NCBI RefSeq assembly: GCF_964204645.1
Contig: NC_134034.1
Location: 9,977,414-10,041,413 of the forward strand
Origin: Tubulanus polymorphus
Lineage: Eukaryota > Nemertea > Palaeonemertea > Tubulaniformes > Tubulanidae
Length of the DNA: 64,000 nt
Reading direction: 5' to 3'
The notes under the pieces: generated by a model
Told to the model about the DNA's origin: nothing
What the model saw: the letters and a program-made list of their open reading frames with translations, nothing else
Database searches by the model: none
In this document: piece by piece, positions 18,331-21,300 of the stretch
How positions within the stretch are numbered: the first letter of the stretch is position 1
Layout: each line of letters opens with the position of its first letter
Translations under genes and position numbers: made by a program

Positions 18331-21300
18331 ATATCATCCGTTGCCGACGTTGCTGCCTGGTTTTTTCTGTCACTGCTAGCATTTCCCTTTTTCCCAATTC
18401 GGGAGAATCCTCGCAGAATTTCACCACCGAGGAAGTAGATAACCTCAGCGATAGCCAGCAGGGAGGCTCCGAGATAGAGACCAGCAGTACCGCCGACATC
18501 ACCTACAAAAGAAAATCGATGTTATTTCTAGGTCACAGAATTCCATATTTGAGTTTTCATTTTCATCCCCCAACCCGCAATGCATCACTACGGTACGAGC
18601 TTTCTTCCGCTCAACCCGCTGGGCGTCACTACGGGCATAACAGCAGTTCGAGCGCTACTAAAGCCACTATAAGTACGGGCTCGAGGTTTCTTTCCGAATC
18701 CCCATATTGTTAGAAGCAGGCCGGTATTCTATTTATCCCGATTAAGGGGCCAGAGAAGAATCTTTCGACCAAGAAAAGAACTTCGCTGCTTCCAATAAGA
18801 GGACAATACAATCTCATAAAGAGCTTATGTTTTTATAAATCTTTAGGTATCAGTTTGATGTTTTTAATTTTCCCGGGTAACGTCATGTTTTCAGGGGGGG
18901 GGGCGTACCCCTGTATACCCTCCCCTTGGATCCACCCCTGGTGTTCATATACTTACAAACCAATGAAAACCACGTGTAAGCTTTTGACTTTGTTAGTTTT
19001 TCTACGTCGAGCGACCGGAAAAATACGTTCACATAAACATAATTATCCCTGAAATGTAACGTGTGAAAATGATACCAGATGGCGTTACTGTACAGTTTTA
19101 GTACCAATGATAAAAGTTGATTTCATTTTATTTGGAATATATATTAGTAGAAGGTAACCCATTCAAAGGAAATTATTTTCAGCAATCTTTCAATATACGG
19201 TAAAATGGATTAGAAATCGATGTATGCATTCAGCTGCCCATCAGTGCTGATATATATATATATATATATATATATATATATATATATATATATATATATA
19301 TATATATATATATATATATATATATATATATATATATATATATATATATATATATATATATATATATATATATATATATATATATATATATATAGAATAT
19401 AGTCGTTTTCAAAAATTATATATGTAGAATATAGTCGTATATATATATATATATATATATATATATATATATATATATATATAGAATATAGTCGTTTTCA
19501 AAAATTATATATGTAGAATATAGTCGTTTTCAAAAATTCTCGACCTACTTGATGAATTTTTCGTTGATTTCGATAGATTCTTGAAACTCGTTCATGTGTT
19601 TCGAAAATGCACCTTCGGACGTCAAAACGGACCTTTGAAACTTCTTCAAATCGTCGACCAGTTTCACCAACGCGGCGCCGTCCTTTTTCGACGCCTTCAA
19701 TATATCTATAACTCGCGTTACGTTCGTTTCTAAATCGGGGAAGATCGTCGCGAATTTCTTCAAGTAGTCGGCGGCTGACGAAGCGTATCGGCTGAGTCCA
19801 GTGACCGTGTCTACCAACCGAGGCAATTCGCTTCCCAAGAGTTCATCGATCGTATACTTCAAGTCGGTTAACGTGTACAGATCGTATGCAACCAATGAGA
19901 GTTGCGAAATCGAATTTTTGGGTGCGTTATTCACGAAATCGGCCAACGGTTTAGTTACGTAGTCGTCGACGTCTTCCGTACGCTTCCTAATGCCGATGAA
20001 ATTAGAACCAAACAACGCAATCATGTAACGGTTATACGCGAATTCGAGCGACACCTCGTGGTTACTCGTGATGGCGATAACGTCGGTCACTTCCGCCAGT
20101 ACCGAGTCTAACCGGCCGAATAAAGACGCTGCAGCGCCCTCTACTGTATCGATCATCGCCATGACGTCATTGATGTTCGATTCGAACGCTCTCCAAACGC
20201 TCTTATCCGAGATTCTTTGTCCGTCGAATAACCAAACCGCGTCCGAAACATCGAACGCCTTGTCGACGAAAGCTTGGCTCGTTTTGTTGAAAATTGCGAG
20301 GGCAACTTCGATCTTCGGTAGAAGAGCCTTTAATTCTGATGAGGGGAATCTCCGCTGGGGGTCGCCGCCGTCGTTATTTTGAAGTTCAGCGTTCAGACGT
20401 GTAAAAACGATTTTGAATTCCGCCATTCCGTCCAGAACCGATACCGCCACATTTCTAAAAATAGTCTGTACCCCGTCCGCTTGACGTTTGTACTGATTAG
20501 CTTCCCCGTTGCCGTTCAATAGAAATTCGCCCATCGCTGTTATATCGTCCCGTAGATAGTTGTCCAACGCGTGCCTGAACTGAGCTAAAGGCGTCAGAAC
20601 CATCGTCTCTACTCTGGATATCGACGACATTTTCACGTAGTTTCGCCTGGATCTGGTCAGCTGCTTCGATATTTCGGATAAAGTTTCGTTGACGGCCACG
20701 TACTGATCGTAAGCGGTCGCGTAGCGTTTTTCGACGAATTCGACCAAATCCAACACTTTACGACCGTAGCTTTGCAAAGAATTTACGAATTGGTCGACGA
20801 TCTTAAAATCTTCGTCGGCCATTTCGCCGTTAACTCGGTGTAAGGCGTTGCGGGATTTCACGTAATCGTCCAGCATGCGACGGCCCTCCTCCGAACTGGT
20901 GTTCACCGATTTAGCCATAGATCTCGCCGTGTAAGACGATAGCGACGAATAACTGATATAGGTATCGTACGACATTTTATTACAGGGTGGAGCGCAACGA
21001 CTTTCATCTACGTGTTCCTCGCGTATTTCCTCTAAAACATGAACATTATAAAATTTAAGACATTTTTGCCAGAAGCAACACATATTTTTCAATTGCTTTC
21101 AAGTGAGTGTATCGGTAACAAACGCATCTTAGTTCAGCTCGTAAAATTCACGCGAGATTTCTGAAGCTGATTTGCTAAAGATTTTGATGCCCCGAATTTT
21201 GACACCCTCGATGACTTTTTGAAATATCTTTAGTAATATAGACATAAAAGATAAGAGTTTAATTTCACTCCAACCATAAGAATGCTACGTGGAGGCAAGA

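Follow-up and report, generated by a model that had tools for sequence, protein, structure and literature searches.

Members of the DEG/ENaC channel family are trimeric, amiloride-sensitive cation channels and carry an HG motif before TM1, a CxPPC motif, and a GxS filter in TM2. Following the ASIC fold, we use knuckle for the segment that runs from the CxPPC strand to the last palm strand. In the FMRFamide-gated channel FaNaC1, the knuckle helix faces the neighboring finger and helps to form the FMRFamide pocket, and the outer knuckle–finger corner is called important for gating across the DEG/ENaC family (accessible text of PMC11026163). In alpha-ENaC, the shear response depends on two asparagines, N312 and the knuckle residue N511, and a glycan motif placed at the matching position of delta-ENaC gives a higher shear response, a gain that is reduced by hyaluronidase (accessible text of PMC7958617). 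The tether model is reviewed in PMC10148893. How force acts on DEG/ENaC channels is a matter of debate, with matrix proteins or glycans, both separate from the channel, put forward as tethers (accessible text of PMC10148893 and PMC7958617).

The window analyzed here is a 64,000-nucleotide stretch of Tubulanus polymorphus DNA from contig C10 of the 267.8-Mb genome. Its minus strand holds a nine-exon DEG/ENaC gene encoding a protein of 950 amino acids, with GT–AG introns and every phase closing. The parts of the gene are listed below. Coding exons 1 to 6 and 8 were delimited by splice and phase checks; the basis of the remaining features is given with each.

25351..25583, minus strand: coding exon 1, with the start ATG and the HG motif
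24776..24946, minus strand: coding exon 2, with TM1 and the start of the extracellular domain
23748..23915, minus strand: coding exon 3
22651..22769, minus strand: coding exon 4
21811..21992, minus strand: coding exon 5, presumably a palm and beta-ball part
21430..21628, minus strand: coding exon 6, presumably with the first cysteines of the thumb
19549..21031, minus strand: coding exon 7, with the CAPPC motif and the helical block (single open frame; codon-position GC)
19581..20894, minus strand: the inserted block, about residues 404–841 (gap between two ASIC5 alignments; aligned in paralogs)
19049..19548, minus strand: the phase-2 intron at the block end (splice check; acceptor comparison with paralogs)
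18957..19048, minus strand: coding exon 8, with a palm strand and the start of TM2
18297..18502, minus strand: coding exon 9, with TM2 and its GAS, the C terminus, and the stop TAG at 18299–18297 (splice check; stop confirmed)

The spliced protein matches PF00858 at 271.6 bits (cut-off 23.6) in two stretches and contains FHGVKY, CAPPC and GAS. An initial annotation, made from the letters of the window, had described a canonical channel with nine exons in phase, one of them a stop-free exon of 1483 bp carrying a long insert, and both points hold for the spliced product. Exon 7 has 0 stops in the coding frame vs. 32 and 20 in the other two, accommodates about 440 extra residues, has GC contents of 0.49, 0.36 and 0.59 at the three codon positions, and is flanked by the acceptor TTTTAG and the donor CAA/GTAGGT. 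A 26-bp tandem array of 39 copies (17315–18332) begins inside the last coding exon, and therefore the last eleven or so codons and the stop are written in the repeat unit. Within the intron at the block end, which has a GC content of 0.19, a long AT dinucleotide array occurs together with a 32-bp repeat at 19250–19538. Elsewhere in the window, a plus-strand frame at 14882–15241 starts, by eye, like a signal peptide and has a stretch with four cysteines that ends in Gly-Lys-Arg; it looks like a neuropeptide precursor and has no Pfam family above cut-off. A 348-residue single-exon frame at 60140–61186 (minus strand) reads by eye like a seven-helix receptor and has no Pfam match at E ≤ 0.1. A 158-codon open frame of similar repeats at 44574–45050 (minus strand) is probably a tandem repeat without a stop. 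Outside the window, contig C77 was considered as a candidate mitochondrial genome, but its first 1500 bases have short frames only and no tRNA.

Among solved structures, the best relative found by PDB sequence search is ASIC5, also called BASIC (bile acid-sensitive ion channel; PDB 9mky), at E 4.5e-44, followed by the other ASICs. ASIC5 is collinear with the window protein from before TM1 through TM2, except that its residues 402–407 are joined directly, at the point where some 440 residues are added in the window protein. Specifically, window residues 53–403 correspond to ASIC5 37–407 and residues 842–907 to ASIC5 402–467, and because these two alignments bracket the block, we place the addition at ASIC5 402–407. 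That bracketing refines the original placement between the thumb and the palm to the knuckle. It also corrects the statement that the insert comes exactly after CAPPC-Y-x(4)-S, since the alignment continues to about residue 403 and the block starts later, at about residue 404. ASIC2 (E 3e-39) and ASIC1 (2e-37 to 8e-34) have the motif order of the window protein, but their solved chains lack such an insert. FaNaC, also a DEG/ENaC channel and one whose knuckle helix is active in ligand binding, is a weaker match than ASIC5, ASIC2 and ASIC1 (5e-25 and 3e-15), and the accessible text on it names no insertion; ENaC is also further off. A weak match (E 0.028) pairs residue 523 of alpha-ENaC with residue 5 of the query. 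If that alignment runs without a gap, the block site would fall at about alpha-ENaC 508–513, spanning N511. The N511 knuckle glycan, proposed as a matrix tether in the accessible literature, would therefore lie at roughly the same place as the block, judging from this alignment and its published position, but it is one glycosylated asparagine and not a protein module. In the open-access literature, as far as its text was accessible, and in Pfam and PDB, we found no ectodomain insertion of this kind in a DEG/ENaC channel, and within that scope the earlier claim that a helical block is new at this site is supported. The channel is of a known kind; the module is, provisionally, new at this site and size.

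The initial annotation implied a single odd gene. Instead, a long open block occupies the same site in 26 of the 42 DEG/ENaC genes examined in the genome, with 13 lacking it and 3 undecided, and the presence of 25 paralogs with an open block at the site leads us to reject an orphan insertion in one gene. The total is a lower bound (at least 42 genes, from 93 of 156 candidates scored), and PF00858 places at C4:5443237, C5:17351362 and C6:2301685 fall outside the count. Among the first 28 loci, tblastn of exon 7 found the block in a nine-gene tandem array (L014–L022; C6:7.10–7.18 Mb) and in L025 and L027; L010 and L012 were recognized in addition when the reading frames were inspected by eye. 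Eleven further loci include nine with the block (L029–L036 and L038), L037 without it, and L039, which holds the 3' end of the gene in L010; seven more include three with the block (L047–L049). L038 is the 3' part of a gene begun in L026, and L004–L008 correspond to genes already represented by L013 (two), L009, L002 and L016. For L032, L034 and L035, the sequences reach the front of the block only. The main tblastn piece of exons 1 and 2 has 53–75% identity with the array genes, L025 and L027, 44% with L026, and 36% with L010 and L012.

The block-less genes are L001, L002, L003, L009, L011, three in L013, L023, L024, L028, L037 and L045; for the undecided L046, L050 and L051, the sequence stretch covered did not settle the matter. 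The distance from the cysteine segment to the last palm strand is less than 1.2 kb in 10 of the 13 block-less genes and is also short in L045, and therefore there is too little room for the roughly 1.3 kb of a block. The gap measures about 1.5 kb in both L011 and L024, and L024 is without any 150-codon frame there. In L011, a Ser/Thr/Pro-rich open frame (L011:5964–6632) lies immediately before this palm strand and may represent another type of insert at the site. Two other copies have features of their own. L027 on C6 and L033 on C4 share 98% identity across 404 codons of the block, and by that identity the pair is a recent copy between chromosomes. In L015, exon 2 shifts reading frame midway (L015:3253–3442) while the block is still open; it may be a dying copy or an assembly error, so that one array member may be dead.

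Outside the CxPPC stretch, which was removed for all comparisons between groups, the blocks can be aligned as a family of long inserts lying between the CxPPC strand and a phase-2 intron that precedes the last palm strand. The profile of the main group matches that of a trio of genes on C11 at E 1.6e-7 (probability 93.9; reversed control 0.28). A second group of three members matches the main group at E 0.018 (reversed 0.26) and has no match to the trio alone (E 0.19; reversed 0.16). With two more members in the second group, the match to the main group plus the trio is at E 5.1e-5 (probability 67; reversed 0.35), collinear over 333 columns, and to the main group alone at 1.9e-4. The second-group profile also matches L049 at 7.5e-32 and L048 at 5.9e-26. 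L047 (C5:22.02 Mb) has a long block at the site with no convincing match to the other blocks (best E 0.016, not collinear), reflecting either a second origin or extreme divergence.

An unrooted tree of the channel cores splits the main group, the trio and L026 from the rest with a support of 0.999 and puts L010 and L012 beside the block-less L003 and L023 with a support of 0.75. That tree comprises paralogs of this genome, without L030, L032, L033, L034 and L035, which have fewer than 70 core residues, and without L045–L051. Either the block is old and has been lost in places, or it was gained more than once. The profile match between the groups favors an old block with losses. In the tree, however, the main clade does not include L010 and L012, which leaves room for a separate gain. 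Intron positions, compared by their acceptors and without L045, bear on how the block was added. The phase-2 intron lies one base before the codon preceding Asn-Tyr/Phe, and the position of its acceptor is shared by the 17 block-bearing genes inspected and by 8 of the 13 block-less genes (L003, L009, L011, three in L013, L023 and L037). L024 and L028 have no acceptor at that position, and in L001 and L002, the cysteine segment and palm strand are in one frame. Because 8 of the block-less genes also have the acceptor of the block-end intron, we infer that the block was probably appended to an exon that already existed, at its 3' end. In L027, L033, L036 and L038, the block is split by a further intron.

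Where it was measured, the block is under weaker but real protein-level constraint. Within the tandem array, block dN/dS is below 1 in all 36 gene pairs, with a median of 0.49 vs. 0.22 for the core, the core value being drawn from three segments without TM2 and 8 of the 36 pairs, those with L015, being affected by its frame break. In the array, pN/pS stays below 1 in every 40-codon window of the block, with a maximum of 0.81, and on that ground, positive selection as the main driver is rejected. The window block is 29% identical to that of L027 (core 61%) and 20% identical to that of L014 (core 54%). Synonymous divergence was also seen to differ between the two parts of the gene, being lower in the core than in the block in 30 of the 36 array pairs (0.195 vs. 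0.687 for the pair L014 and L022), whereas six pairs, all close copies, have the higher value in the core. Gene conversion may be homogenizing the core while sparing the block.

The block of the window copy had been described as cysteine-free with several N-glycosylation sequons. There is indeed no cysteine in residues 386–852, but this is not a general trait, since the 22 other blocks counted hold 1–5 cysteines each. Likewise, the 4 sequons present are about the number that shuffling gives (3.3), with some relatives having about twice the expectation. The mean hydrophobicity of 17 aligned blocks has an amphipathic peak at 102 degrees (3.5 residues per turn) with a power of 24.4, vs. a maximum of 12.6 in 200 shuffles; this period is absent in 30-residue windows starting near residues 560–575, 680 and 710. 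Two single-sequence AlphaFold models are helical at low confidence (mean pLDDT 42.1, pTM 0.28; for the second half, pLDDT 54.7, pTM 0.48). The block is likely a multi-helix bundle, as far as can be predicted. The earlier view of it as a coding, helical block of the ectodomain is supported by the 25 paralogs with an open block, selection, the periodicity and the splice structure. A comparison of five profile slices found no convincing internal repeat (best E 0.0091, probability 4.5). Searched alone or as a 12-member profile against Pfam and PDB sequences, the block has no family above cut-off and no convincing match, and Pfam finds no spectrin-like repeats in it. The candidates considered and rejected were ATG17_like (PF04108; 19.4 bits vs. 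a cut-off of 43, E ≤ 1 in 2 of 12 members), DUF1722 (PF08349; at best 22.3 bits, in L020, vs. a cut-off of 22.5, E ≤ 1 in 7 of 12 members, the likeness spanning about 43 residues at the block end), and Nsp1/Nup62 (Nsp1 at E 0.022, a weak match in a single stretch). We read these matches as chance likenesses of amphipathic helices. In virus and prokaryote collections, a search by short exact peptides, a method limited to close relatives, turned up no confirmed relative.

The window gene is best read as a subunit of an expanded BASIC/ASIC-like subfamily that would bear a fast-evolving helical antenna on its knuckle. Tentatively, and at a little under an even chance, we suggest that this mostly alpha-helical module of about 440 residues is a bundle antenna serving as a force tether. 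Its helices would pack together, with the resulting bundle projecting from the outer region of every subunit of the trimer, and the antenna would pass an outside pull, whether from the matrix, a neighboring cell or fluid, to the knuckle–finger corner, which steers gating. A protein part would thereby fill the role proposed for a sugar, the knuckle N-glycan, in alpha-ENaC. A large helical module situated here would be well placed to convey a pull or a bound partner to the gating corner, and the stalk, tether or ligand platform suggested in the initial annotation is plausible. Rapid divergence together with tandem duplication is as compatible with chemosensing or partner recognition as with a tether, and on our analysis, the force tether would be slightly ahead of a ligand platform. 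Such a platform, binding soluble or surface ligands and altering the finger pocket via the knuckle while paralogs diversify in specificity, is conceivable but on the unlikely side. It draws support from the large family with its nine-gene array, from a block dN/dS about twice that of the core, and from the FaNaC peptide pocket being partly formed by the knuckle helix (accessible text of PMC11026163). The lack of any block window in the array with pN/pS above 1 argues the other way, as does the block having neither a Pfam family above cut-off nor a convincing PDB sequence match.

A more improbable role would be an assembly code, by which the block sets which subunits trimerize or dock to accessory proteins. 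The 26 block-bearing genes in one genome and the coiled-coil-like period of 3.5 residues would suit it, but core subunit contacts normally suffice for assembly. ENaC inhibitory tracts sit in another domain, and this counts against the idea that proteases clip or release the block and thereby activate the channel, as they do with those tracts; we think it quite improbable, even with a large exposed insert in the ectodomain and the precedent of ENaC itself (accessible text of PMC9163703). That the block is an artifact of the gene model, either a retained intron or a chance open frame, is scarcely credible. Three donor-like sites late in exon 7 do score 1.7, 0.8 and 0.8, inside the range of real donors, but by the same rough matrix, the best donor-like site near the block start scores −0.8 vs. 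0.1 to 5.5 for the eight real donors. A retained intron is rejected on that account together with the frame being open in 26 genes and the purifying constraint, and the codon-position bias likewise speaks against an artifact.

Going further, one might take these genes for a new class of animal sodium channel, in which every subunit would have its own helical force lever on the knuckle, pulling the gate open from outside, invented once and expanded to dozens in this lineage; judged from sequence, that is doubtful. The finding does mean that the knuckle of a DEG/ENaC channel can accommodate an insert of roughly the same length as the remaining protein. With an encoded module near the force-sensing glycan site, the tether idea would become directly testable by exchanging or shortening one part.
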